A stretch of DNA of 42,564 bases from a virus. Below are positions 8,376 to 31,520 of the stretch, in pieces. The DNA is taken from positions 1 through 42,564 of IMG/VR virus record IMGVR_UViG_3300023179_000202; one strand, written 5' to 3'. Position 1 is the stretch's first letter, and each line of letters starts with the position of its first letter. The notes below the pieces were generated by a model. It was not told the DNA's origin, did no database searches, and was given only the letters and a program-made list of their open reading frames with translations. The position numbers were made by a program, and so were the translations under genes.

Positions 8376-9473
8376 ATGCCCACCCAAACCACCGTCTTCA
8401 ACCTTAACAAACCGACCGTCGCCGGCGACCCCGACACCTGGGGCGGCTCTGCGGGCCTCAACGGATCGCTCGACAAGCTCGAGGCAGCGCTCAAAGCGAC
8501 GGCGACGACGGGCTCGGCGAATGCGTACGTGCTGTCGAGCGGCCTGTCCCTCACGGCGTACGCCACGGGCCTGACGCTGCGGATCATCCCGAACTTCACG
8601 AACAGCGGCGCGGCGACAATCAACGTGGACGGGCTCGGCGCCAAGAGCATCACGAAGCTTGGCGCGACGGCGGTGGCGTCGGGGGATATTACGAGCGGGC
8701 GGATTTACACGCTCAGCTACGACGGAACGCAGTTTCAGATCGTCGAGATCAATGCGCTGGATCCGACGCTCAGCACGATTGCGGCGCTGACGCCGACGAC
8801 GGACCAGTCGATCTACTTTACCGGGTCGGACACGGCGGCGACCTACAGCCTGACGTCGGCGGGCCGGTCGATGGCGAGCGCGGCAAGCGCGACTGCGCAG
8901 ACGGCGCTGCTCAATGAGTTCACGGGCGACAGCGGATCGGGCGGCCTCAAGGGTCTCGTCAAGGCGCCGATCGCGGGGGACAGCGGCAAGTACCTTAAAG
9001 GCGACGGAACCTGGTCAACGCTCAACCCCGCAATATCGTGGGGTGCGCCGGTTGCGACGTGGACGTGGTCAACGAACGTCACGGAAATCGCCTTCACTGG
9101 CTTGAGCGCGTATTCTGAGCTTCTGATTATAGCCTATGACGTCACCACGGCGTCGAGTGTCGCGATCCAGTTGCAATGGTCGATTGACAACGGAAGCACC
9201 TACATTTCGACATCGACATATGGCCGGTCAGGCGGGGCCACCACATCTGCATCTGTACGCTTCACGGCAGCCACGGCCAGCGCGTATGTCGTCCACATCC
9301 TGAACTTCAACACCGCGTCATATCCATCGACCGCCATCTCGCTCATGGATGCGGGGACGAGCCCGATGCTAAGCGTTGACACGACCCTGCGCGCCAAAAA
9401 CGCCTTCAAGATCCTCAACAGCGGCACCGCCAACTTTACGGCGGGCACGATCCGCGTTTACGGGAAGGCCTAA
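8376..9473 (+). CDS. Tail fibre / receptor-binding protein
   Basis: A 365-residue Ser/Thr/Ala/Gly-rich protein. Residues 1-40 (FNLNKPTVAGDPDTWGGSAG) are the N-terminal pattern of alphaproteobacterial phage fibre proteins; the middle has repeated short beta turns, and LVKAPIAGDSGKYLKGDGTW (about 195-215) is the collar seen before many fibre C-terminal domains. The last 150 residues form a beta-sandwich-like domain likely to contact the host surface. Start follows AGAGGCCTAACC, a sequence repeated before the next gene. It is followed by a fibre-assembly-like gene. Fairly sure of the class; receptor unknown. Confidence 0.75.
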   Translation: MPTQTTVFNLNKPTVAGDPDTWGGSAGLNGSLDKLEAALKATATTGSANAYVLSSGLSLTAYATGLTLRIIPNFTNSGAATINVDGLGAKSITKLGATAVASGDITSGRIYTLSYDGTQFQIVEINALDPTLSTIAALTPTTDQSIYFTGSDTAATYSLTSAGRSMASAASATAQTALLNEFTGDSGSGGLKGLVKAPIAGDSGKYLKGDGTWSTLNPAISWGAPVATWTWSTNVTEIAFTGLSAYSELLIIAYDVTTASSVAIQLQWSIDNGSTYISTSTYGRSGGATTSASVRFTAATASAYVVHILNFNTASYPSTAISLMDAGTSPMLSVDTTLRAKNAFKILNSGTANFTAGTIRVYGKA

Positions 9474-9475
9474 CC

Positions 9476-9802
9476 ATGCCGATGTATCGTGAAATCGTGA
9501 CGCCCGAAGGCTCGCAGATTGTGCAGCTTACGGCGGAAGAGGAAGCGGCGATCATCAACGCACCGCAGCCGGTCCCGGAGGAAGTCCGCCAAGCCCAAGC
9601 GCGCCGCGCGCTCCTCGCTGCGGGATTGCTGACGACCGTTGAGGCGGCCGTCGCTGCGTCCTTGCAGGACATCCAGATTGCGTGGGAGTACGAGCCGAAC
9701 ATCAGGCGCGACAGCCCGATGATCGCGGCGCTTGCGCCAGCGCTCGGCCTGACCGACGCGCAGATTGACGACCTGTTCCGCGCCGCGGCGGCGATCACCT
9801 AA
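9476..9802 (+). CDS. Tail fibre assembly-like protein (108 aa)
   Basis: The C-terminal pattern ARRALLAAGLLTTVEAAVA ... IRRDSPMIAALAPALGLTD is typical of small proteins encoded directly downstream of fibres in many phages, thought to help fibre folding or attachment. Starts two bases after the fibre stop, with the same AGGCCTAACCATGCC context as the fibre gene. No membrane or signal segment. Function by family pattern and neighbourhood. Confidence 0.65.
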   Translation: MPMYREIVTPEGSQIVQLTAEEEAAIINAPQPVPEEVRQAQARRALLAAGLLTTVEAAVAASLQDIQIAWEYEPNIRRDSPMIAALAPALGLTDAQIDDLFRAAAAIT

Positions 9803-15165: not shown

Positions 15166-16350
15166 TCACCGCCTGCGCGACAACTTCCACCGTGAGGCGC
15201 CGCACGCACCGAACGCCCGCAAGGGTCGGCGTTGGCCTTCCAAACTAGTGACAGGGGTTCGATTCCCCTTACCCGCTCCAGCATTATCAAGCACATAGGC
15301 GGACGGGGCGGAAAGCGGTTGTCGCCGGTTGTCGGCGCGGTTGTCCGCCTCCACCATCGGGTCGATGTAGACGGCCAGCATGCGCGCCACTTCCGCCTCG
15401 CTCCAACCGAGGCGGCGCGCGATCTGGCCGTTCGACATGCCTTGCGCGGACAGCCTCGACGCGGCGGCTCTGCGCAGCCCGTGCAAGCCCTTGTCGATCC
15501 CGAGCGGGGCGAGTGCTGCGGTCAGGCTGTTGTGCAGGCCGTCGGCGGTCCACGGCTTGCCGAGCGTGTTCGTGAGCACGGTGTCGGCGTTGTCCGGACA
15601 ACCGCGCAATGTGGCGCGCAGGGAGGGGGTGAGGTCGATGATGGCTTCGCGCCCGTACCGTCGCCCTTTTGACGGGCGCCAGCGGATCACGCCGCGCGCG
15701 TCGTCGATCGACGCCCACGTGAGGCGCACCAGATCCTCGCGCCGCAGGCCGGTATCGACGGCAAGGCGCACGGCGGCGGACAAGCGGGCGGGGAGAGAGA
15801 ACACCGCAACCGCGATCTCCGCATCGCTCCACGCCGGCTGCGGCGGCGCGACGTAAAGGCGCGGCATGTCGGCAGTCGGCTTGGCGTCGCTCGGCAACAT
15901 GTCCTGGCGTCGGCCCCACGTCGCCAGTGCGCCCACGACCGTCTTGATCTGGTCCGCCGTGCGCAGCGAGCGCTCCGCCGCTTCGATGCGCCAGGCGCGA
16001 ATGCGATCCCGCCCCCCCTTGCCGGCGAATTGGCGCAGATCGAGATCGCCGAGGCGCTTGCGGGCTTCACGCAGGAACTGGCCGTATAGGTCCTGCGTTT
16101 GCGTGGCGAGGCGGCGGAACTCGAGGCTGCGCTCGTAATCGTCGATGAGGCGCTTCACCGAACCTTCGACGGGGCGATGACGGTTCGCCAGCAGCTCGAG
16201 AATTTCGGCGGCGCGGGGCTCGACTTCCGCCAGCGGGCCGGACCACAGGAGGGGGCCGCCTTCGCCGTCGTAGAGGTACAACCGCCCCTTGGCGATCTTC
16301 CGCCTAACGCCCCTTGGCCACACGATCCCGAGCCCATTGCTTGATGCCAT
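15166..16350 (-). CDS. int: Tyrosine-type site-specific integrase
   Basis: A 394-residue protein. The N-terminal DNA-binding part runs to about 170. The catalytic domain shows Arg203 (DTGLRREDLVRL), Lys228 (RPSKGRRYGRE), the box H290-x-x-R293 (KGLHGLRR), Trp316 in place of the second His (RRLGWSEAE) and the nucleophile Tyr328 (MLAVYID). ATG has GGAGG seven bases upstream. The C-terminal tail GAGKGNRTPVTSLEG is the translation of a tRNA-derived attP (15238-15280), so integration would replace the final residues. It is the last gene of the leftward operon, overlapping the one before by 47 bases. Catalyses recombination between attP and a host tRNA-Gly gene. Confidence 0.93.
   Translation of the reverse strand: MASSNGLGIVWPRGVRRKIAKGRLYLYDGEGGPLLWSGPLAEVEPRAAEILELLANRHRPVEGSVKRLIDDYERSLEFRRLATQTQDLYGQFLREARKRLGDLDLRQFAGKGGRDRIRAWRIEAAERSLRTADQIKTVVGALATWGRRQDMLPSDAKPTADMPRLYVAPPQPAWSDAEIAVAVFSLPARLSAAVRLAVDTGLRREDLVRLTWASIDDARGVIRWRPSKGRRYGREAIIDLTPSLRATLRGCPDNADTVLTNTLGKPWTADGLHNSLTAALAPLGIDKGLHGLRRAAASRLSAQGMSNGQIARRLGWSEAEVARMLAVYIDPMVEADNRADNRRQPLSAPSAYVLDNAGAGKGNRTPVTSLEGQRRPLRAFGACGASRWKLSRRR
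15238..15280 (+). other. attP core: 3' half of tRNA-Gly(UCC)
   Basis: From the anticodon loop TTCCAA through anticodon-stem 3' strand ACTAG, T arm AGGGG-TTCGATT-CCCCT, acceptor 3' strand TACCCGC, discriminator T and CCA. The 5' bases before it (gttggcc) cannot form the partner stem strand CTAGT, so only the 3' half is carried, as in phages that integrate in tRNA genes and restore the gene. The core lies inside the 3' end of the integrase gene. The expected host gene has a GCGGGTA acceptor and a CTAGT anticodon stem. Confidence 0.88.
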
Positions 16351-16615
16351 CGACCGCCTCCGTCTGAGGAGCGGCGGGCGATTCCGGTTGTTGGGGTGTT
16401 AACGCCGGCCTTGCCTGCACGATGAGGCGGCCCGCTTCGTACACGACGACGGCCTCAACGGGGCCGGTCCAGCCGCCATGACGGACGGTGGACAGGGCCA
16501 GTTCGCGCAGGCGGTTGCGGTCGGCGGTGCTGGGGAGGGCGGCGGCGAGTTTGGCCGTAATGACGCTGGCGTGAGCAAACGCGATGGAGAGGCGTTCATC
16601 CGTGGTCGCGGTCAT
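16304..16615 (-). CDS. Unknown early protein upstream of integrase (103 aa)
   Basis: ATG at 16615 with GGGAG spaced seven bases upstream, chosen over a longer frame because the upstream region encodes another small gene. The N-terminal half is helical (LSIAFAHASVITAKLAAAL), then a short beta segment (VEAVVVYEAGRLIVQARP), a Pro/Gln/Ala linker and a helical tail. It overlaps the integrase start by 47 bases. A directionality factor is possible by position, but it has no clear winged-helix pattern. Confidence 0.6.
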   Translation of the reverse strand: MTATTDERLSIAFAHASVITAKLAAALPSTADRNRLRELALSTVRHGGWTGPVEAVVVYEAGRLIVQARPALTPQQPESPAAPQTEAVDGIKQWARDRVAKGR

Positions 16616-18835: not shown

Positions 18836-19071
18836 GGCGTGTCTCCGAGGGCGGCGTAACGATCTGCGGCAATGTTGTGGATGCGCTCTAACTGCCCCGC
18901 GGCGGCGCGGAGGGCGGTGGCGGTTTCTTCCTCGCTTGTCGACGTGAACATCTGCTCTTGCCAAGCGACAGCCGCGCGGTTCGCTTCTTCATACTCGGCA
19001 AGATCGCGCGCATTTTGTTCGTGCTTTTCCGCCAGCTCCACGAGCCGCGCGGGGGTGATGGGGTCAGTCAT
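18832..19071 (-). CDS. Helical early protein of unknown function (79 aa)
   Basis: ATG 19071 (MTDPITPARL). Nearly all-helical and acidic, with heptad-like spacing (LVELAEKHEQNARDLAEYEE and TALRAAAGQLERIHNIAA), so probably a coiled-coil or helical hairpin. Coupled by ATGA to the downstream gene and overlapping the Dam gene upstream. Role unknown. Confidence 0.65.
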   Translation of the reverse strand: MTDPITPARLVELAEKHEQNARDLAEYEEANRAAVAWQEQMFTSTSEEETATALRAAAGQLERIHNIAADRYAALGDTP

Positions 19072-19543
19072 GGCGGCCTCGCAAAACAAAACACGCAATG
19101 TGTCGCCCGGTGCCCGGCCCGACAGATCCGTCCTCCGTAGCCAGCCATCTCACGTCACCAAGGTTGCGAACCTCCGCGCCCGCGGCCAACAACATCAGCA
19201 CCCACTTATCGATCGGGTAGACAAGCACGGACTGTTTGCCTTGCTGCTGTTCTGCGATTGCCTTGCGCACCCAAGCCGTCATGCCTTTCTTGCGCCCCTC
19301 ATGGATGATCGAGCCAAAAGGCGGATTGACATAGTTCGATCGCCCCCACGGCGCTGTAAGCCCGTCGAAATCGTCCGGCTTTGGAAACGGACAGGGATCG
19401 AAATCAAACGAGAACTCAGCGTTCAGGCGCGTGTAAAGGTCTGGCGGCGTCAGCCAGTAATGCTTGCCGTCGTCGCCGTTGCCGTCGTGAAATTTGTTAG
19501 ACACGCGCGACTCTGGAAGCGGAAACAACAAAGGCTCGCTCAT
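19064..19543 (-). CDS. Phage Dam-type N6-adenine DNA methyltransferase (159 aa)
   Basis: The size and motif order fit the phage Dam family: WLTPPDLY near the N-terminus (residues 30-37), FDFDPCPFP (about 46-54), catalytic motif YVNPPFG with NPPF at 73-76, then helices and VLVYP. It transfers a methyl group from AdoMet to adenine in DNA; the site is not readable. In temperate phages it can protect DNA from host restriction. Overlaps by 4 bases with the upstream gene. One of three DNA methyltransferases here, with no restriction nuclease beside it. Confidence 0.88.
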   Translation of the reverse strand: MSEPLLFPLPESRVSNKFHDGNGDDGKHYWLTPPDLYTRLNAEFSFDFDPCPFPKPDDFDGLTAPWGRSNYVNPPFGSIIHEGRKKGMTAWVRKAIAEQQQGKQSVLVYPIDKWVLMLLAAGAEVRNLGDVRWLATEDGSVGPGTGRHIACFVLRGRHD

Positions 19544-20070
19544 GGCGCATCTCCGAGGGCGGCGCGGGCGAAATCCGCAGTCTTTTGCCGGACGATTGCG
19601 CGGGCCTCCGCATAGCGCGAGATGGCGTCCATCAAGCCTTGATCCGGCCCGGCCACGCCGCCAGTCGTCTGCGCGGCAACGGAAAGCGCATCGGCCGCGC
19701 GTGTGTAATCATGCATCCACGAAGGCCACGCGGCTTTGAGCACAAACGCCTCCCGCGCCTGCGCGGCCTCAAGGGCGGCGGCGAGGCGGGTGACATTGTT
19801 GCGCGCCCAGGCGATAAACTCGGCATCGGTTCGCGCATCGCCTTCGCCCAACTCCGAGCCGCGCACACCGTCCGTCGTGACGATGTACCGCGTCATCCGC
19901 TGGCCGTCCGGCGTTTCGGCGGCACCCGCATCAAACACCGTGCCGATCAGCCAATCATGTCCGACTTCGGACATTTCATTGACACGCCAAGGGCCTGACG
20001 TGGCGGCTGCAATCCTTTCTCGCGCCTCCGCCACGAGCGCGGCGACGTCGTCAGGGGTGGGGGTGGTCAT
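19540..20070 (-). CDS. Ead/Ea22-like early protein (176 aa)
   Basis: ATG 20070 (MTTPTPDD). The pattern ARERIAAATSGPWRV followed later by DAEFIAWARNNVTRLAAALE is that of Ead/Ea22-like proteins widespread in leftward early operons of lambdoid and alphaproteobacterial phages; their function is unknown. The C-terminal part is helical. Overlaps the methyltransferase upstream by ATGA. Confident in the pattern, not in any activity. Confidence 0.7.
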   Translation of the reverse strand: MTTPTPDDVAALVAEARERIAAATSGPWRVNEMSEVGHDWLIGTVFDAGAAETPDGQRMTRYIVTTDGVRGSELGEGDARTDAEFIAWARNNVTRLAAALEAAQAREAFVLKAAWPSWMHDYTRAADALSVAAQTTGGVAGPDQGLMDAISRYAEARAIVRQKTADFARAALGDAP

Positions 20071-20960
20071 GGACGGGGCTCCAGTGTGACGGGCAGGTAC
20101 GCACGCGCAATCCAGTGCGACAGCGCGAAGGGGATCTTGGCGATGCGGGCGGACGCGGCTTTGCGGCGCGAGGATTTGCTTGGCAACGAACAAAGGTTCT
20201 GGTCGAACCATTCCGCGCCCGCGCCCGCGCCCTTGCGCCCTTCCTCAACATGCCGCGCCACGCTCTCGCTCTGAAAGCTGCGCCCGCTGCCGTCGAAGCG
20301 GAAGCCGGGGTTTTTGCGGCCAGCGCGTTCGAGCAACGCCTCGCGCACCTGCGCGCCCTGCGCGCCCGGATTAAACGCCAGCCCCGGCGTGTGGTCCGGG
20401 TGATTGGGGTGACGCCAGCCCGCGCCGACACCCGGCACCTTAACACCGCCAAGCGTGCGCGGCATCAGCGCCGGCACGTCGCCCCACAGGTAATAGCTGC
20501 CGAAGTTCCAGCGTGCGCGGCCCACCCACGGCTCCGTTCCGCGCACGTTCTCCACGACGAGCGGGATGCGCCGCCCCGCCGCCTGGCTCGCCTCGCGCTG
20601 GATGCGGAAGCACGCATCGAACAGGGCATTGAGGTCCGCGATCGTGCGCGAGCCTTTGTAGCCCTCAGGAAAATCGCCCTCGCCACGCAGGGCGCGGGCG
20701 ATCTGTTTCGCGCGGGACCACGGCATAGCCATGTAAGAATACTCCGTACACGGTGGCGAGGCGACGATCAGGTCTGCGTCCGCAAACTGCGCGCCGTCGA
20801 GCGTCAGCACGTCCTGAAGCACCAGGCGCGCGGGGTAGCGTTCGCCGTCATATTCGTGCGCCTCGATGTCGTAGCCGGTCACGTCGTAGCCCGCTGCAAG
20901 CAAGCCCTCCGTCCAGCCGCCGAGACCGCAGAACAAGTCGATCGCGCGGGGCTTTCTCAC
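20067..20960 (-). CDS. C5-cytosine DNA methyltransferase (297 aa)
   Basis: GTG 20960 is the likely start: GGGAGAGG lies just upstream and MRKPRAIDLFCGLGGWTEGL begins exactly at motif I. Motif IV SPPCTEYSY carries the catalytic Cys (71), and VVENVRG (about 135-141) is motif VI. The C-terminal third is variable, as for target recognition domains. It methylates cytosine C5 in a site not predictable here. The end of a 30-aa gene overlaps the start (GTGA). The distal motif region is short compared with bacterial Dcm enzymes, usual for phage versions. Confidence 0.88.
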   Translation of the reverse strand: MRKPRAIDLFCGLGGWTEGLLAAGYDVTGYDIEAHEYDGERYPARLVLQDVLTLDGAQFADADLIVASPPCTEYSYMAMPWSRAKQIARALRGEGDFPEGYKGSRTIADLNALFDACFRIQREASQAAGRRIPLVVENVRGTEPWVGRARWNFGSYYLWGDVPALMPRTLGGVKVPGVGAGWRHPNHPDHTPGLAFNPGAQGAQVREALLERAGRKNPGFRFDGSGRSFQSESVARHVEEGRKGAGAGAEWFDQNLCSLPSKSSRRKAASARIAKIPFALSHWIARAYLPVTLEPRP

Positions 20961-21049
20961 GGCCTCTCCCTCGCAATCAAGGCACACGCCAACAGAAACA
21001 CGAGCACGCCTATCAGCGCGGACGCGAGGAGGTCGTTGAGAGAGATCAT
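20957..21049 (-). CDS. 30-aa single-pass membrane peptide
   Basis: ATG 21049 overlaps the upstream stop (ATGA) and its own stop overlaps the methyltransferase GTG (GTGA). The peptide is MISLNDLLASALIGVLVFLL followed by ACALIARERP, a single hydrophobic helix with a basic end. The exact coupling on both sides makes a real gene likely; no function can be given. Confidence 0.6.
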   Translation of the reverse strand: MISLNDLLASALIGVLVFLLACALIARERP

Positions 21050-21228
21050 GAGCGCCGCCCCCGCAGGTCGACGACCTTCGGCTCCTCTCGAGGAGGGATG
21101 GGATCGCGCGCCTTGGGCGGCGAGGCGCCGGTGTCATTCAGGGAAAGCGCGACGCCAAACGCCGCGCCAAGCAAGAACACGAACACCGTGATGATGATGG
21201 TGCAGATGATAAGGAGGAGGTTGATCAT
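21046..21228 (-). CDS. Small single-pass membrane protein (60 aa)
   Basis: The first 31 residues are a strong hydrophobic helix (LLLIICTIIITVFVFLLGAA), followed by a hydrophilic Pro/Arg-rich tail. Coupled by TGATG to the upstream gene and by ATGA to the next. An N-terminal anchor with a short cytoplasmic tail; role unknown. Confidence 0.75.
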   Translation of the reverse strand: MINLLLIICTIIITVFVFLLGAAFGVALSLNDTGASPPKARDPIPPREEPKVVDLRGRRS

Positions 21229-24066: not shown

Positions 24067-24306
24067 TCAGTCCTTCAATGTGAGGTGGCCGGCGAGCTGT
24101 TCAGCGCGGAGCGTCACAGCGTTCTCGATCCCGTCGAGCCACGCGGCGGGGAGAATGTCGAAAGTCTCGCGATTGGTTTCCCACCACTGCGCCAGCTCGT
24201 CGTGCGAGCGGCAGGCGCGGATCTCGCGGGTAATGCGATCCCACTCGCCGGCCTTTTTGGCGGCGGACGAGGACAGGCGCGCAGGCGGCGGCTTAGGCAG
24301 CTCCAC
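24067..24306 (-). CDS. Early protein of unknown function (79 aa)
   Basis: GTG 24306 chosen because GGAGG lies five to six bases upstream within the previous gene's end; a longer frame without such a site exists. MELPKPPPARLSSSAAKKAG precedes a helical domain (WDRITREIRACRSHDELAQW). The 'HDELAQWW' segment resembles small phage proteins next to recombination genes. Function unknown. Confidence 0.65.
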   Translation of the reverse strand: MELPKPPPARLSSSAAKKAGEWDRITREIRACRSHDELAQWWETNRETFDILPAAWLDGIENAVTLRAEQLAGHLTLKD

Positions 24307-24478
24307 GGATCGCCTCCATGGCCTGCCGCAGCGCGCTGCGCGTCGTGTTGTCGGGATCGAAATCGGGCGACTGCTCAAGCGCGCGGATCGCGGCGATCAG
24401 GGCAGTTTCAGCGCCGTAAAGGTGGAACTCAGCGTCGTGCGCGAGGTCCAGGTCGGCGGGGGTGAGTGGGGTGTTCAT
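24293..24478 (-). CDS. First gene of leftward early operon (61 aa)
   Basis: ATG 24478 lies 11 bases after the proximal operator, so it is the first product of the leftward promoter. The protein is acidic and helical (LTPADLDLAHDAEFHLYGAE, ALIAAIRALEQSPDFD). In lambda this position holds the antiterminator N; here there is no Arg-rich N-like motif, so such a role is not supported. Overlaps the next gene by 14 bases. Confidence 0.65.
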   Translation of the reverse strand: MNTPLTPADLDLAHDAEFHLYGAETALIAAIRALEQSPDFDPDNTTRSALRQAMEAIRGAA

Positions 24479-24488
24479 GCCCGCAAGA

Positions 24489-24505
24489 CTTGCATGGCAT
24501 GTAAG
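24489..24505. promoter_or_regulatory. Putative OL1 operator (17 bp)
   Basis: CTTGC-ATGGCAT-GTAAG: five-base arms with one mismatch around a 7-base spacer. Same design as the sites at 24523, 24917 and 24974. It lies just before the first leftward gene, near the likely -10 region downstream of TTGACC (24510-24515 read leftward). Confidence 0.6.
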
Positions 24506-24522
24506 AGGCGGTCAAGCGCAAA

Positions 24523-24539
24523 ATTACATCAGCCGTAAA
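24523..24539. promoter_or_regulatory. Putative OL2 operator (17 bp)
   Basis: ATTAC-ATCAGCC-GTAAA, with GTAA/TTAC core arms and a 7-base spacer. Centre is 34 bp from OL1, and the candidate -35 box TTGACC lies between the two sites. The repressor gene stop is 24548, nine bases away. Confidence 0.6.
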
Positions 24540-24547
24540 TCGGCGCG

Positions 24548-24907
24548 TCAGCCGTTTGCAACTTTCGACCGCGCAAAGGTTTTTAGGACGAGCAGGGCTT
24601 GGGGCTTGTCGTCCTCGGGGACCTGGGACCAGACCTCCTCAATGCCTGCCTCTTTATTTGGAGGCCGAGACATGAGGGCAGTCGGCGTCGTGCGCAGGAC
24701 TTCTGCAAACATATTCAGAATGTCGATGTCTACGGGCTGTTTTTGCTTTTCGTAGCGCGAGACTGACGCAACAGTCGTCTCGTATTCAAACATCGTCGCG
24801 AGCCGATCGACCACGTCTTCCTGAGTGTAGCCGCGATAGTCGCGCCACTGCTTGATGAAGTTCTTAGGTATAGGCCGCTTAAGCCTGTCTTTGACGCGCT
24901 TAACCAT
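24548..24907 (-). CDS. Short XRE-family lysogeny repressor (CI-like, 119 aa)
   Basis: ATG 24907 is preferred; an in-frame ATG at 24925 lies inside an operator. Residues 14-75 form a helix-turn-helix of the XRE type (NFIKQWRDYRGYTQEDVVDR, then TVASVSRYEKQKQPVDIDIL). The remaining 45 residues are a short helical tail with no S24 peptidase domain and no Ser/Lys dyad, so it cannot self-cleave like lambda CI. It is divergent from the Cro-like gene with operators between. Predicted to hold both early promoters off in lysogens; induction must use another trigger. Confidence 0.8.
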   Translation of the reverse strand: MVKRVKDRLKRPIPKNFIKQWRDYRGYTQEDVVDRLATMFEYETTVASVSRYEKQKQPVDIDILNMFAEVLRTTPTALMSRPPNKEAGIEEVWSQVPEDDKPQALLVLKTFARSKVANG

Positions 24908-24916
24908 GCGGCGATC

Positions 24917-24933
24917 GTTACACATTGCGTAAC
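24917..24933. promoter_or_regulatory. Putative OR operator next to repressor gene (17 bp)
   Basis: GTTAC-ACATTGC-GTAAC, perfect five-base arms and a 7-base spacer, nine bases upstream of the repressor ATG. Position suggests control of the repressor's own promoter. Confidence 0.75.
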
Positions 24934-24950
24934 CGTGCGCCTTCCGCCGC

Positions 24951-24970
24951 GCGCAAATTGCCTCTTGCGC
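24951..24970. promoter_or_regulatory. Inverted repeat GCGCAA-N8-TTGCGC in the switch
   Basis: A perfect six-base inverted repeat in the middle of the divergent region. TTGCGC at 24965-24970 could be the -35 box of the rightward promoter with TAACTT (24987-24992) as -10, sixteen bases apart. The other arm, GCGCAA, reads TTGCGC on the opposite strand but is not well placed for the repressor promoter. Could also be a third, different operator. Confidence 0.45.
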
Positions 24971-24973
24971 GAA

Positions 24974-24990
24974 CTTACATGTAATGTAAC
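24974..24990. promoter_or_regulatory. Putative OR operator next to cro-like gene (17 bp)
   Basis: CTTAC-ATGTAAT-GTAAC, containing the palindrome TTACATGTAA. It covers the candidate -10 box TAACTT and ends nine bases before ATG 25000, so binding would block the rightward early promoter. Confidence 0.75.
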
Positions 24991-24999
24991 TTCGTGGGC

Positions 25000-25203
25000 A
25001 TGACAAACGACAGCCCCAGCGCGCTTCGCGCATGGCGCGGCGACCGCACGCTCGATGAGGTTGCCGCGCTTCTCCAGACGACCCCCGCAACGATCTCGCG
25101 CCTTGAGCGGGGAGAGCAGTGGGTTAGCCGCGAACTGGCGCTCCGCATCAGGGACGTGACGGGCCTTCAGGTGGACGACCTGTTGCCACGGGGCGCCGCA
25201 TGA
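25000..25203 (+). CDS. Cro-like XRE-family regulator (67 aa)
   Basis: A single helix-turn-helix domain: LRAWRGDRTLDEVAALLQTT followed by PATISRLERGEQWVSRELAL, the typical XRE recognition-helix pattern. The ATG at 25000 is taken; a GTG at 24994 is also in frame. No Shine-Dalgarno is visible, and a -10 box at 24987-24992 would start transcription at or next to the ATG, so the mRNA may be leaderless. Divergent to the repressor, first gene of the rightward operon, and overlapping the next gene by ATGA: the layout of Cro. Confidence 0.8.
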   Translation: MTNDSPSALRAWRGDRTLDEVAALLQTTPATISRLERGEQWVSRELALRIRDVTGLQVDDLLPRGAA

Positions 25204-25475
25204 GCCTGCCCCGCTCCTACACGCGCCATTCGCTGGAATTCTGGATCAACGGGCTCCGCGAGAGCCTGGCGAACGATCCGGACGGCGAGATGGCCCCGCG
25301 CTGGCGCAAGTCGCTCGAGAGAGCGGAGGCCGAATTGTCCGAACTCAAATCAATGATGGGGGAGCAGTCACATGCCCAGGCTCAGCAATACGCCGTGGAC
25401 GGACGAGGAAGACGCTATCCTGGCGCGCATGTGGCGCGAGGGCGCAAGCGCTTCTCAAATCGCAAAGGCGCTTGA
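25200..25475 (+). CDS. Early protein of unknown function (91 aa)
   Basis: ATG overlaps the cro-like stop (ATGA). Residues 1-57 are protein-like and helical (SLEFWINGLRESLANDPDGE, RWRKSLERAEAELSELKSMM). The last 34 residues overlap the GcrA-like gene by 104 bases in another frame and are basic and low-quality, so they are probably constrained by GcrA coding. A start further along is not available. Role unknown. Confidence 0.6.
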   Translation: MSLPRSYTRHSLEFWINGLRESLANDPDGEMAPRWRKSLERAEAELSELKSMMGEQSHAQAQQYAVDGRGRRYPGAHVARGRKRFSNRKGA

Positions 25476-25872
25476 TACGGGACGGTCCCGGAACGCCGTG
25501 ATCGGCCGTGTGCATCGCCTGAACCTGCCCATGCGCATTGAGTACAACTCGAACCGCACCAACGCCTTCGGACGCGTTCGCAACGCGCGCACGGGCCGCA
25601 AGCCGCGCAAGGTCATCTATACGCCCGTCGCTGCGGCCCGCGTCCGGGCGCCGACCATCAACCCGCGCAAGGCGGCGTTGCGCGCCGAGCAGATCGAAAC
25701 GCTCAACGTCCCGTTCCTCGAAGTGCAGCGCTTCCAATGCCGCGCGATCGTGGACGACACGCGCTTTGCTCAGAAGTGCTGCGGCCAGTGGCGGGATGAG
25801 GATAGCCCGTACTGCGCCGATCACCGCGCTCTGTATTCGGCTCCAGCGAAAGAGAAGGGGCAGGCGGCATGA
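25372..25872 (+). CDS. gcrA: GcrA-family cell-cycle regulator homologue (166 aa)
   Basis: ATG preceded by GGGGAG. Residues 8-53 contain the GcrA signature: WTDEEDAILARMWREGASAS, QIAKALDTGRSRNAVIGRVH, RLNLP, a helix-turn-helix that recognises GANTC sites methylated by CcrM in Caulobacter-type bacteria. The C-terminus keeps the family's Cys/His pattern (FQC at 121-123, KCCGQW, SPYCADH at 145-151), the part that contacts the sigma-70 holoenzyme. A 60-residue basic linker separates the two. In the rightward early operon it could redirect host cell-cycle transcription or read methylation of phage promoters. Confidence 0.88.
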   Translation: MPRLSNTPWTDEEDAILARMWREGASASQIAKALDTGRSRNAVIGRVHRLNLPMRIEYNSNRTNAFGRVRNARTGRKPRKVIYTPVAAARVRAPTINPRKAALRAEQIETLNVPFLEVQRFQCRAIVDDTRFAQKCCGQWRDEDSPYCADHRALYSAPAKEKGQAA

Positions 25873-27266
25873 GCAACCCCCATTATATCGATCTTGTCGC
25901 GCAAAAGCGCGTTGCGTTTGCACCGCGTGGATTTGAGCCGCGTTCGCTTCATCCCGCGTTGAAGCCGCATCAAGAGCACTGCGTGGACTTCGCTGTCCGC
26001 CAAGGGTCGGCGGCGCTGTTCCTTGATACGGGCTTGGGCAAGACGCTTTGCGCGCTCGATTGGGGGCGTCAGGTCGTGGAGCGCACGAACCGACCCGTGT
26101 TGATGCTTGCGCCTTTGGCCGTTGCTGCGCAGCACGAGCGCGAGGCGGGCAAGTTTGGCATTGACGCGCGCAAGGTCCGCGAAGCCGCCGAGATCAGCGG
26201 CGCGCGCATCTACGTCACGAACTACGATCGGCTTGACCGTTTCGACGCTGACGACTTTGCCGGCGTGATCCTAGACGAAAGTTCCATCATCAAGAGCTTT
26301 TCGGGCCAGACCTCCAAGGCGCTCATTCAGTCGTTCGCGCGCACGCCGTACCGGCTGGCCTGTACCGCGACGCCCGCGCCCAACGATCACATGGAGCTGG
26401 GCCAGCACTCCGAGTTCTTGGGCGTCATGCGCCAGACAATGATGCTGAACCGATGGTTCATCCACGACAGCGCCGACACCGGAACGTGGCGCATGAAGGG
26501 CCACGCGGTTGAAGACTTCTGGTCCTGGGTGGCCTCGTGGGCGCGCTGCATCTCCAAGCCGTCCGATATCGGCTTGAGCGATGACGGTTATGACCTGCCG
26601 CCGCTCGATCTAGTCAAGCACGAGATCGCGGCGGACCGCTCGATTGACACCGGAGCGGAAAAGGACGGCCAAGCGCGACTGTTCCGCATCCCGGAAACGT
26701 CCGCTACGTCAATCCACAAAGAGAAGCGGCTGACGGTCGAGGCCCGCGCCGACGTAATCGCGCGCCTTGTCGCCGCCGAGCCCGGCGAACCGTGGATCGT
26801 CTGGTGCGAGACGGACTATGAGGCTGACGCGCTTATGGCGCGCCTTTCAGGCGCCGTTGAAGTACGCGGCTCCATGAAGGCTGACGACAAGGAAGAACGC
26901 CTTGCAGCCTTTGCCGACGGCCGCGTGCGCGTGCTCGTGAGCAAGCCGTCCGTGTGCGGATGGGGCCTCAACTGGCAGCATTGCGCCCGCGTCGCCTTCA
27001 TTGGCCTCTCGTTCTCCTATGAGGCGTTTTATCAGGCCGTTCGCCGGTGCTGGCGCTTCGGCCAGACGCGCCCCGTCAAAGTTCATGTGGCGATGGCCGA
27101 CACTGAGCGCGCCATCTGGGAAGTCGTGTCCCGCAAGGCCGGCGATCACGACGCCATGAAAGAGCAGATGACCTTGGCCATGCGCCGCGCCGCGAACCTC
27201 GTGGCGCATGGCGACTATCAACCGCGCCAGCCGATCCGCTGGCCTTCATTCCTGGGTGCAGCATGA
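25869..27266 (+). CDS. SNF2-type DEAD/DEAH helicase (465 aa)
   Basis: Motif I DTGLGKT (53-59), motif Ia region LMLAPLAV, motif II LDESS (135-139), motif III TATPAP (166-171), motif V CGWGLNWQ (363-370) and motif VI QAVRRCWRFGQ (389-399) are all present in order: a superfamily 2, SNF2-like ATPase. Phages with replication modules of this kind often pair it with the methyltransferase encoded next, four bases overlapping. It probably moves on double-stranded DNA rather than unwinding it, by family knowledge. No nuclease or extra domain is seen. Exact role in replication or anti-restriction unknown. Confidence 0.85.
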   Translation: MSNPHYIDLVAQKRVAFAPRGFEPRSLHPALKPHQEHCVDFAVRQGSAALFLDTGLGKTLCALDWGRQVVERTNRPVLMLAPLAVAAQHEREAGKFGIDARKVREAAEISGARIYVTNYDRLDRFDADDFAGVILDESSIIKSFSGQTSKALIQSFARTPYRLACTATPAPNDHMELGQHSEFLGVMRQTMMLNRWFIHDSADTGTWRMKGHAVEDFWSWVASWARCISKPSDIGLSDDGYDLPPLDLVKHEIAADRSIDTGAEKDGQARLFRIPETSATSIHKEKRLTVEARADVIARLVAAEPGEPWIVWCETDYEADALMARLSGAVEVRGSMKADDKEERLAAFADGRVRVLVSKPSVCGWGLNWQHCARVAFIGLSFSYEAFYQAVRRCWRFGQTRPVKVHVAMADTERAIWEVVSRKAGDHDAMKEQMTLAMRRAANLVAHGDYQPRQPIRWPSFLGAA

Positions 27267-28159
27267 CACACGTGATCGACCAAAAGCATGGCGCCAACTG
27301 GACGGCGTATAACGCAGACTGCGTGGACGTGCTGTCCGCCATGCCGTCCGACACAATCGGCTTCTCCGTGTTCTCGCCGCCGTTCGCGCATCTGTTCGTG
27401 TATTCGGACAGCCCGCGCGACATGGGCAACGTCTCGGATGAAGCGGAGTTCAAGGCGCTTTACGAGCACGTTGCGCGCGAGCTGTATCGCGTCACCAAGC
27501 CGGGCCGGCTTGTGGCGGTGCATTGCTCCGACCTTCCGCGCACCAAGTCCATGCATGGCGTCGTGGGGCTCTATGACTTCCCCGCCGATATCCGCGAAGC
27601 GCACGAGCGCGCCGGCTGGACGTACCATTCCCGCATCACGGTGTGGAAAGACCCCGTCGTGGAGATGCAGCGCACCAAGGCGTTGGGGCTTCTCTACAAG
27701 CAAATCCAGACGGACGCGACGCGCAACCGTCAGGGAATGCCGGACTACGTGCTCGTGTTCCGCAAGACGCCTGAGGACGAAACCAAGGTTGATCGCGTCG
27801 GCCAGGACGCCAAGCAGTTCCCGGTGGACATGTGGCAGCAATGGGCGTCGCCCGTCTGGATGGATATCAACCAGACGGATGTGTTGAACGCCCGTGTGGC
27901 GCGTGAGGACAAAGACGAGCGCCACCTTTGCCCGCTCCAACTGCCCCTGATTGAGCGATGCATCCGCCTTTGGACCAATCCCGGAGACGTGGTGTTCTCG
28001 CCCTTCATGGGCATTGGATCGGAGGGCGTTTCTGCAATCCGAACCGGGCGCAAGTTCATCGGCACGGAATTGAAGCCCGGCTACTTCAATCAGGCCGTGC
28101 GTTTCTTGGCCGAAGCTGAGCAAGCCAACACCGCAACTCTCTTCGAGGCTATCGCTTGA
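27263..28159 (+). CDS. Amino-DNA methyltransferase, beta-type order (298 aa)
   Basis: Motif IV FSPPF (37-41) comes before the AdoMet-binding motif SPFMGIGSEG (246-255), the circularly permuted (beta) order of N4-cytosine and N6-adenine methyltransferases; SPPF favours N4-cytosine but does not prove it. FIGTELKPGYFNQA after motif I is typical. It is not CcrM-like (DPPY absent). Overlaps both neighbours by four bases, so it is made with the SNF2 helicase and the primase. Likely modifies phage DNA during replication; recognition sequence unknown. Confidence 0.87.
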   Translation: MTHVIDQKHGANWTAYNADCVDVLSAMPSDTIGFSVFSPPFAHLFVYSDSPRDMGNVSDEAEFKALYEHVARELYRVTKPGRLVAVHCSDLPRTKSMHGVVGLYDFPADIREAHERAGWTYHSRITVWKDPVVEMQRTKALGLLYKQIQTDATRNRQGMPDYVLVFRKTPEDETKVDRVGQDAKQFPVDMWQQWASPVWMDINQTDVLNARVAREDKDERHLCPLQLPLIERCIRLWTNPGDVVFSPFMGIGSEGVSAIRTGRKFIGTELKPGYFNQAVRFLAEAEQANTATLFEAIA

Positions 28160-30003
28160 CCATGGGCATCTTCGCGGGCCTGCCGTCCGACCCGAAGGCG
28201 CTTGCGTTGGAATACGCGCGGCGCGGCCTGCCCGTGTTCCCGTGCAAGCCGGAACGCTTCGGGGAGGAGCGCAAGCGCCCATTCACGCGCCACGGGTTCA
28301 AGGACGCCACGACCGACCCCATCAAAATCGCCCAGTGGTGGGAGTGGTGGCCCGACGCGCTCGTGGGCATTCCTACGGGCCCGGCGACCGGCCTCATGGT
28401 CCACGATTGGGACAGCAAGAGCTGCGACGTGGAGATGGCCCTCGCAGACATGGAGGCCGATTTCGGCCCCATCATGGGGCCGCTCATCCGCACCATGTCG
28501 GGCGGTATTCACATCTGGACGAAGTGGGTCGCCGGCATCCTCAACAGCGCCTCCAAGCTGCGCCCCGGCTACGACGTGCGCGGGGAGGGTGGATACGCCA
28601 TCGCGCCCGGCTCGCACGGCTACATGCTCGAGCGCGATGTCGAGCCTGACGAGCCGCCCGAGGCGCTCATCAACGCCCTTCGCAATGCCAGTGGCAAGCC
28701 GTCCCTGTCCGTCGTCGGCGGCACGGACGCAGGCCTCACGCCCGTCTATCAGCGCACGGTCGCCGAGCAGGTCCAAGCGGCCCTGCAAGAGGGCTCACGT
28801 CACGACGCCGTCGTCCGCCTCGTGTGGATTTACGTCCAGCGCGGGTTCTCCATGGACGAGATCCTTGCGCACGCTGACGTGTTCTCGCGCGGCAACGGCT
28901 GGTCGATCCCCGAGGGCCGGCGCGAGTTCAAAAAGGCCGCAGAAAGCGCCTTTAAGAAGCAAGGTCTTCCGCTTACCGGCAAGATCGAGCCGGGGCCAAT
29001 TGAGATTGTCAGTCTTAACGAGCTCCAGACCCGCGACCCGCCCGAGTGGCAAATCCAGGGCGTCATCCCCGAAAATTCGCTCGGCAGCTTCTACGGCGAC
29101 AGCGCCACCTTCAAGACGTTTAACGTCCTCGATATGGCCCTGTCCGTCGCCTACGGCGTCCCTTGGCAGGGCACGCCCACCAAGCAAGGCCCCGTCATTT
29201 ACGTCGTCGGCGAAGGTCAGAACGCTTTTGCCCTGCGTGTCCACGCCTGGCGCAAGGCGCGCGGCCTCTTAGGCGTCGACGCCCCGTTCTTCGTCATCCT
29301 CCAGCCCGTCGCCATGGGTGATCCGAAAGCCGTCGCCATGGTCGTTCAGGCCGTCGAGGCGAAGGGCATCAAGCCGGTCCTCATGCCCATCGACACGCTC
29401 GCCCGGAACTTCGGCGCGGGCGACCCCGACAAGACGCAGGACATGACCGCCTTCGTCGGCGGCCTGGACGCCCTCCGGCTCAAGTTCAGCACGACCGTGC
29501 TGGTGGTCCACCACAGCGGCAAGGACGCCGCCAAGGGCGCGCGCAACTCGTCTGTGTTGCGCGCTGCGGTGGACGTCGAGATCCGCGCTGAGCGCGAGGA
29601 GAAGGCCCAGCGCGTCAAGCTCATCAACACGAAGCAGAAGGACGGCGAGGAGTTCCGCGACATGTGGCTGACCCTCGACCCCGTCGAGGTGACTGACCCC
29701 CGCACGGGAGAGGTTACGACGTCGCTCGTGGTGCGGGGCGACAGCGCCGATGACAAGCCCGTTCCCATGGCGAAACCAGGCGGACGGATGGAGGCGTGGG
29801 TCCTTTCCGTGCTCGCCCAACGCGAAACTTTGACCCTCTCCGAGATCATCGGACGCGACCCTCAGGTGGACAAATCCAACGTCAAACGCGCGCTGAGGGG
29901 TCTTTTGGAAAAAGGGCTCGTGAAACGCGGCGAGGGGTCACCGCAGACCTTTTGGAAAGCTGACCAATACCAACAGGATGAGCGTGAAACTGACCCCAAC
30001 TGA
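28156..30003 (+). CDS. Primase-polymerase / RepA-type ATPase fusion (615 aa)
   Basis: N-terminal Prim-Pol domain: metal-binding DWD at 84-86 (VHDWDSKS), GGIHIWTKW (116-124) corresponding to the conserved G-G-x-H motif. Central RecA-like ATPase of the RepA helicase type: P-loop GDSATFKT (314-321), Walker B LMPIDTL (409-415), then VLVVHHSGKD, a motif typical of RepA-like helicases. C-terminal 80 residues form a winged-helix-like region (LTLSEIIGRDPQVDKSNVKR). The start may be TTG 28156, which has GAGG in front and overlaps the previous stop, or ATG 28162. It would open and prime the phage origin; iterons start within its last codons. Confidence 0.87.
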   Translation: MTMGIFAGLPSDPKALALEYARRGLPVFPCKPERFGEERKRPFTRHGFKDATTDPIKIAQWWEWWPDALVGIPTGPATGLMVHDWDSKSCDVEMALADMEADFGPIMGPLIRTMSGGIHIWTKWVAGILNSASKLRPGYDVRGEGGYAIAPGSHGYMLERDVEPDEPPEALINALRNASGKPSLSVVGGTDAGLTPVYQRTVAEQVQAALQEGSRHDAVVRLVWIYVQRGFSMDEILAHADVFSRGNGWSIPEGRREFKKAAESAFKKQGLPLTGKIEPGPIEIVSLNELQTRDPPEWQIQGVIPENSLGSFYGDSATFKTFNVLDMALSVAYGVPWQGTPTKQGPVIYVVGEGQNAFALRVHAWRKARGLLGVDAPFFVILQPVAMGDPKAVAMVVQAVEAKGIKPVLMPIDTLARNFGAGDPDKTQDMTAFVGGLDALRLKFSTTVLVVHHSGKDAAKGARNSSVLRAAVDVEIRAEREEKAQRVKLINTKQKDGEEFRDMWLTLDPVEVTDPRTGEVTTSLVVRGDSADDKPVPMAKPGGRMEAWVLSVLAQRETLTLSEIIGRDPQVDKSNVKRALRGLLEKGLVKRGEGSPQTFWKADQYQQDERETDPN

Positions 30004-30018
30004 CCCCCACTGACCCCC
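29989..30018 (+). repeat. Three contiguous 10-bp iterons ACTGACCCC(A/C)
   Basis: ACTGACCCCA at 29989 and ACTGACCCCC at 29999 and 30009, one helical turn apart, across the primase stop codon. Further ACTGACCCC copies are at 29692, 30024 and 30083 and an inverted copy at 30044. Phased iterons beside the initiator/primase gene are a common design of phage and plasmid origins. Confidence 0.75.
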
Positions 30019-30022
30019 TAGT

Positions 30023-30104
30023 GACTGACCCCGGAAAGGAGGGGGGGTCAGTCAGGGTCACCGGTCTATAGACCGTGACCTGACTGACCCCCTCCGACAG
30101 GAGG
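30023..30104 (+). other. Overlapping hairpins: candidate origin or RNA switch
   Basis: Three structures share arms. Hairpin A: GACTGACCCC (30023-30032) with GGGGTCAGTC (30044-30053). Hairpin B: a 50-bp dyad 30043-30092 centred on TATA (30067-30070), arms pairing over about 22 bases with two single-base bulges. Hairpin C: CCTCC (30091-30095) with GGAGG (30100-30104), which would hide the ribosome site of the DUF1064 gene. A and B cannot form together, and B competes with C by two bases. No gene lies in 30004-30110. It may act as DNA (origin cruciform) or as RNA (translation control). Confidence 0.6.
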
Positions 30105-30110
30105 CTGGAG

Positions 30111-30527
30111 ATGACCGCAGTTTTGAGGAAGCGAGTGACCCCCGGTCGCTCCAAATACGGCGCCCGAAAAACCGTCCGTGACGGCATCACGTTCGACTCC
30201 GTCGGCGAGGCCAACCGCTGGGGCCAGCTCAAGCTGCTCGAGCGCGCCGGCAACATCCGAGGGCTTGGCGAGCCACACCCGTCCTTCCCGATCGCCATAA
30301 ACGGAACGATCGTTTGCAAGGTCGAGATGGACTTCGCCTATTCCGAAAACGGCCAGGCGGTCGTCGAGGACTACAAGGGCGTCGACACCCCCGTTTCCCG
30401 CCTCAAGCGCAAGCTGCTGGCGGCGGCGTATCCGCATCTGGTCATCCGCGTGACCGGCGCGGCTGCGCCCAAGCCTAAGGCCCCGCGCAAGCCGCGCTTG
30501 GCAGCCGGTAAGGGGAGGGCGAGATGA
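30111..30527 (+). CDS. DUF1064 phage nuclease-like protein (138 aa)
   Basis: ATG 30111 with AGGAGG six bases upstream. The pattern SKYGARKTVRDGITFDSVGE, EANRW, then DFAYSENGQAVVEDYKGVDT and LKRKL matches DUF1064, small phage proteins with a PD-(D/E)xK-like core (D of DFAY, E-x-K of VEDYKG). They are thought to be nucleases or resolvase-like enzymes of replication. The C-terminal tail is Lys/Arg/Pro-rich. The ribosome site can be closed by hairpin C. Confidence 0.8.
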   Translation: MTAVLRKRVTPGRSKYGARKTVRDGITFDSVGEANRWGQLKLLERAGNIRGLGEPHPSFPIAINGTIVCKVEMDFAYSENGQAVVEDYKGVDTPVSRLKRKLLAAAYPHLVIRVTGAAAPKPKAPRKPRLAAGKGRAR

Positions 30528-30931
30528 CCCGCCCCCAATCCACCGCCGCATGGCAGGCGCAGCGCATCGAGCAACTAGAGGCCGAAGTCGCCTACCTGCG
30601 CGGCCAGCTCGCCGAAGCGACCGGCGACGCCCGCCAGAGCATCCTGATGAGCGAGTACGGCCTCACGCATCAGGAAGCCCGCGTGCTGGCCCGCCTGATG
30701 CAGCCCGCGCCCACGCTCGCCGCCCTTGCGGCTGCCATGCGCACGGAAAGCACGCTGCCCGAAAAGCTCGTCCAGGTGCTGATTTGCCGGATCCGCGCCA
30801 AGCTCGCCCGCGTCGGCCTCGCCGGCGCGATCGAGACGGCTGTCGGGCTCGGCTACCGCCTGACCCCTCACGCCCGCCGCGCGCTCGCCGCGGCCCTCGA
30901 CGAAATTCCCGCGCAGGAGATGAGCCGATGA
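30524..30931 (+). CDS. Winged-helix (OmpR/PhoB-type) DNA-binding protein (135 aa)
   Basis: An N-terminal coiled coil (RIEQLEAEVAYLRGQLAEA, residues 14-32) leads to a domain with LTHQEARVLARLM, then EKLVQVLICRIRAKLARVG and AIETAVGLGYRLTP: the helix-recognition helix-wing pattern of response-regulator output domains. No receiver domain or phosphorylated Asp is present. GGGGAGGG gives a strong ribosome site. It is near the end of the rightward early operon, just before the late genes, so a late activator is possible. Confidence 0.7.
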   Translation: MTRPQSTAAWQAQRIEQLEAEVAYLRGQLAEATGDARQSILMSEYGLTHQEARVLARLMQPAPTLAALAAAMRTESTLPEKLVQVLICRIRAKLARVGLAGAIETAVGLGYRLTPHARRALAAALDEIPAQEMSR

Positions 30932-31473: not shown

Positions 31474-31520
31474 CGGCGGGATCAGTTTGGATCATGATTT
31501 GGTCAAGATCGAATTGATTC

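Follow-up and report, generated by a model that had tools for sequence, protein, structure and literature searches.

The window analysed here covers positions 1 to 42,564 of the IMG/VR virus record IMGVR_UViG_3300023179_000202 (G000), and it encodes a real GcrA-family protein, diverged from the cellular form (Table 1). GcrA binds sigma-2 and activates methylated promoters (PMC7403470). The explanation that we favour, with a probability of about 0.55, is that the window protein is the GcrA-family sigma-70 cofactor of a temperate alphaproteobacterial phage and would switch on host GcrA-type promoters, or redirect polymerase to them, for replication. This reading is based directly on the family, the predicted folds, the operon position, the conservation among relatives, an exclusively viral clade and a GANTC-free early region; from these we infer binding to methylated GANTC, contact with sigma-70, host targets and early timing. 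Phage-borne GcrA has been known since 2012 and is common, and the window copy is not the first of its kind.

Table 1. Features of the window that bear on the gcrA homologue
Feature	Positions	Strand	Basis or remark
Integrase	15166-16350		
CI-like HTH repressor, divergent from cro	24548-24925	-	Pfam HTH_31 24.5 bits (below 27 cut-off); PHROGs transcriptional regulator/repressor
Cro-like HTH_3 regulator, first in rightward operon	25000-25203	+	Pfam HTH_3 33.1 bits
Small gene X, 91 aa	25200-25475	+	ORF list; conserved in G002, E 2e-8
gcrA homologue, 166 aa	25372-25872	+	Pfam PF07750, PDB 7ye1, AlphaFold model m70db229cc6e6
GcrA DNA-binding domain, residues 1-52, recognition helix SRNAVIGRVHRL	25372-25527	+	pLDDT, Foldseek
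GcrA sigma-interacting-type domain, residues about 113-155, without CxWPxGDP	25708-25836	+	pLDDT, Foldseek, C/C/C/H
SNF2/DEAD-type helicase	25869-27266	+	Pfam Helicase_C 40.7 bits; phrog_62 E 5e-71
Beta-class DNA methylase, SPPF catalytic motif	27263-28159	+	Pfam N6_N4_Mtase 84 bits
Prim-Pol / AAA_25 primase-helicase	28156-30003	+	Pfam; phrog_906 E 1.6e-48
GANTC (GATTC), sole one in a clear intergenic stretch	31516-31520	.	Just before terminator-like hairpin

A two-domain GcrA with a diverged C-terminal domain

The gcrA frame opens with ATG behind a ribosome-binding-like sequence, GGGGGAG. Its product matches the Pfam GcrA model with an E-value of 1.2e-22 and 81.5 bits (curated cut-off 26.9 bits) over profile positions 3-149 of 155; this model also gives a match in a Sulfolobus control genome, and the window match spans the full domain. 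A PDB sequence search with the protein returns C. crescentus GcrA (7ye1) over residues 8-162 at an E-value of 2.2e-15 and the GcrA DNA-binding domain 5yiu at 7e-10, so that the family match is far above chance and covers both domains. An AlphaFold2 model computed from 50 aligned viral copies has two confident domains, with pLDDT about 95 and 93, and a low-confidence linker between them, a layout already known from C. crescentus GcrA (PMC7403470). Foldseek E-values for this model reach no better than a modest 0.0025, owing to short domains and a flexible linker; the top two PDB matches are GcrA itself. The first-pass annotation had proposed a phage-encoded GcrA homologue with both domains, and on this point Pfam, PDB, AlphaFold and Foldseek agree.

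The DNA-binding domain is the better kept of the two. With pLDDT of about 94-97 at residues 11-50, its model lies on the structure of C. crescentus GcrA with methylated DNA (5yiv_A) at TMt 0.93 and 0.9 A, with 59% identity, and the N-terminal helix-turn-helix claimed at first pass is thereby found in the model as the GcrA DNA-binding fold. The recognition helix, TRNAVIGKVHRLGL in the window and SRNAVIGRVHRLNL in C. crescentus GcrA, is nearly the same in both. The C-terminal domain, at pLDDT of about 92-95, is matched to the sigma-interacting domain of GcrA (7ye2_G) at TMt 0.69 and 2.1 A over 47 columns, and the C-terminal Cys/His pattern noticed earlier holds up as C123, C137, C148 and H151, all four unchanged across 50 aligned viral GcrA proteins. 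Both domain folds, the recognition helix and the C/C/C/H residues are thus shared with C. crescentus GcrA (5yiv, 7ye1, 7ye2), from which the window protein differs in lacking CxWPxGDP and in scoring far under the NCBIfam equivalog cut-off for cellular GcrA (NF050816, 74.6 bits against 280). The motif CxWPxG(D/H)P stands in the C-terminal domain of every main-locus cellular GcrA examined; motif comparison finds CRAIVDDTRF at its site in the window protein and CRAVTDPTRF in the GcrA of the relative G002, and WP is retained in 25 of the 61 IMG/VR copies that have the C/C/C/H pattern. Since CxWPxGDP is missing, the sigma-70 contact of the window protein could be altered or lost. Judged from sequence and model, reading of methylated GANTC and binding of sigma-70 are nevertheless plausible.

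This uneven conservation suits a protein that sits on host GcrA sites or on sigma-70 and does not activate, a competitive inhibitor that would stall the host cycle, and HTH-only versions, expected to bind without recruiting polymerase, occur in the capsid relative G004 and in Caulobacter phage RW. A pure blocker would, however, need neither the invariant C/C/C/H residues nor the C-terminal fold that is predicted to be kept, and we regard such interference as unlikely. In Caulobacter phage RW (L114), GcrA is apparently split into an HTH-only protein and a protein with a C/C/C/H domain of sigma-interacting type, encoded 11 kb apart at 9047-9610 and 20001-20318.

Genome setting, relatives and methylases

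The gene order around gcrA is lambda-like: a leftward CI-like gene is followed by rightward genes for the Cro-like regulator, X, GcrA, helicase, methylase and primase, so that the surroundings, which run rightward, are indeed the early operon that had been assumed at first pass. The integrase, together with SU10-type capsid, portal and terminase genes, marks the phage as temperate-type. Gene X and gcrA share 104 nt, read in different frames, and the overlap recurs in G002, at about 107 nt, though the two GcrAs are only about 40% identical. Directly past the primase gene lies a 50-nt near-perfect inverted repeat (30043-30092), a possible terminator or origin. The contig ends, 2-835 and 41731-42564, form a direct repeat of 88.5% identity over 837 nt, which points either to a near-complete genome that wraps around on itself and shows strain variation, or to duplication of a gene. 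An OmpR-type wHTH gene at 30524-30931 was considered as a CtrA-like partner and dropped, as a PDB search gave no significant match.

All three closest capsid relatives of the window have GcrA-type genes: the two at 85% and 79% identity carry a complete one, and G004, at 65%, one with the HTH alone. In G002 and G003, as in the window, gcrA is preceded by a Cro-type gene and a small one. More distant capsid relatives, most of them fragments, gave no gcrA in the search. The closest full-length relatives of the protein itself are L002 (99%) and G002. In a quick tree of 127 GcrA proteins, with many open forks and several long branches, the window falls in a clade of 17 rows (SH-aLRT 99) made up of phage and viral-contig sequences only, among them MW202785 and 13 IMG/VR copies, and apart from phiCbK and the main cellular GcrAs. 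Because the clade is exclusively viral, the window gene is not a recent host capture. Viral GcrA genes occur in at least 159 IMG/VR stretches and in 32 GenBank phage records. Agrobacterium phage Atu_ph08 (PMC6630229) and Brevundimonas phages carry GcrA genes too, and most other phage and prophage GcrAs are less than 40% identical to the window protein. A capsid search for a clue to the host returned only Vogesella and "Actinomycetota" MAG matches, at 37-47%, an uninformative result.

The methylase two genes downstream was weighed as a CcrM-type writer for the GcrA reader and rejected on motif, profile and PDB comparisons: SPPF is present and the DPPY motif of CcrM type is not, the NCBIfam CcrM model gives 39.9 bits against a cut-off of 830, and the best PDB match is 2zie, with CcrM matching mainly over 71 residues. 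The pairing of SNF2 helicase and methylase is found near gcrA in 14 of 78 GcrA loci and in 23 of 79 methylase loci, near-duplicates included, counts whose meaning is limited by both being early-region genes. This pair (L267-L345) is widespread in viral contigs, with at least 596 matches to the methylase, and the median GANTC ratio of pair-bearing stretches, 0.16, is below that of GcrA stretches without the pair (0.29) and that of host DNA. Elsewhere in the window there are a Dam-type methylase-like match, below its cut-off, at 19064-19543 and a partial C5-methylase match at 20067-21137.

GANTC sites and the likely targets

The window holds 20 GANTC sites in 42.6 kb where a first-order Markov model expects 188, a ratio of 0.11, which overstates the depletion, given that synonymous codon shuffling of its genes yields 0.23 (16 sites seen, 68.5 +/- 6.4 expected; seven control motifs at 0.81-1.07). 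Depletion was rejected as a signature of phage GcrA at work, for the ratio is also low in 40 stretches of alphaproteobacterial chromosome (median 0.32, range 0.11-0.88), and so it is in capsid relatives that gave no GcrA match (G007 with no GANTC in 40 kb, G018 and G019 at 0.36). For L096-L097 (IMGVR_UViG_3300038701_002031), a capsid relative with no GcrA match and no GANTC in 40 kb, the first-order Markov model expects 137 sites. Depletion is thus general in alphaproteobacterial DNA; it supports an alphaproteobacterial host and is no mark of GcrA action.

Where the sites lie bears on the choice of target. With a simple gene caller, the intergenic and genic ratios are 0.52 and 0.29 in host chromosome stretches, the excess between genes being as expected of promoter elements; they are 0.33 and 0.27, a weak contrast, in GcrA viral loci, and 0.12 and 0.11 in the window, where only three sites are intergenic. 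The region 24,069-30,194 contains no GANTC, about three being expected at the window's own density, and the CI/Cro spacer none either. Sites that are rare, not enriched between genes and missing from this early region make it unlikely that the early promoters of the phage are GANTC-methylation switches, and an intergenic bias found in the host and not in the phage points to host promoters over phage promoters; on sequence grounds, host promoters are therefore the likelier target.

These data bear also on a CII-like role, in which the protein, its DNA specificity changed, would be a phage-specific activator of lysogeny or of later phage promoters. The order cro, X, gcrA ahead of the replication genes resembles the position of lambda cII and is shared by G002 and G003, and the genome also has an integrase and a CI-like gene. 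Yet the recognition helix is almost unchanged from that of cellular GcrA, the early region and the CI/Cro spacer offer no site, and the GANTC near the integrase start, at 16380, sits within an upstream open frame with no clear promoter, so that we think this role improbable. We speculate, with greater doubt, that GcrA might be a switch in the CII position that combines a near-host DNA-binding domain with a re-tooled sigma contact: the methylation state of the host chromosome, and so its replication state, would set the decision between lysis and lysogeny or that on replication, while phage DNA, nearly free of GANTC, would neither titrate GcrA nor respond to it.

The proposal made at first pass that phage genes are timed to replication fares worst; that GcrA would do so by reading methylated GANTC within the phage genome is very improbable. 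Although a weak sigma-70-like site stands 17 nt upstream of the intergenic GATTC and host GcrA is needed by an operon of a Brevundimonas prophage (PMC7987155), the distribution of the 20 sites speaks against it, and GcrA sites showed no positional bias when alphaproteobacterial phages were scanned in published work (PMC9437464).

Proposed action and its meaning

Action on host promoters for replication is the simplest reading, and it is the one that Gill et al. gave for phiCbK, whose GcrA they reported in 2012 and proposed to raise host replication genes (PMC3556154); in the literature searched, we found no experimental test of that hypothesis. Like the window protein, phiCbK gp222 is phage-encoded, has two domains and matches Pfam GcrA (PMC3556154), and the same role is proposed for both. 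The two differ in that phiCbK-like GcrA is only 25-28% identical to the window protein, retains CRWPYGDP and shows greater divergence in its recognition helix (TKSAVCGKADR), and in that phiCbK is a giant phage. In the mechanism that we favour, the window GcrA would most likely be produced at an early stage of infection, following the Cro-type switch; its helix-turn-helix, of near-host specificity, would bind methylated GANTC, and its diverged sigma-interacting domain would touch host RNA polymerase. Host GcrA-type promoters, those of replication genes included, would thereby be switched on or given redirected polymerase, and the cell would be pushed to a replication-permissive state. The takeover of the host cell cycle suggested at first pass is accordingly plausible.

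The loss of CxWPxGDP in many phage copies raises, at the level of single residues, the question of what GcrA needs for its contact with sigma-70. For the phiCbK hypothesis, a compact case is at hand in a 42 kb phage of temperate type whose GcrA has kept its DNA-binding domain well. If the protein works as proposed, the phage would be using the epigenetic cell-cycle cofactor of its host to force a state that permits replication.
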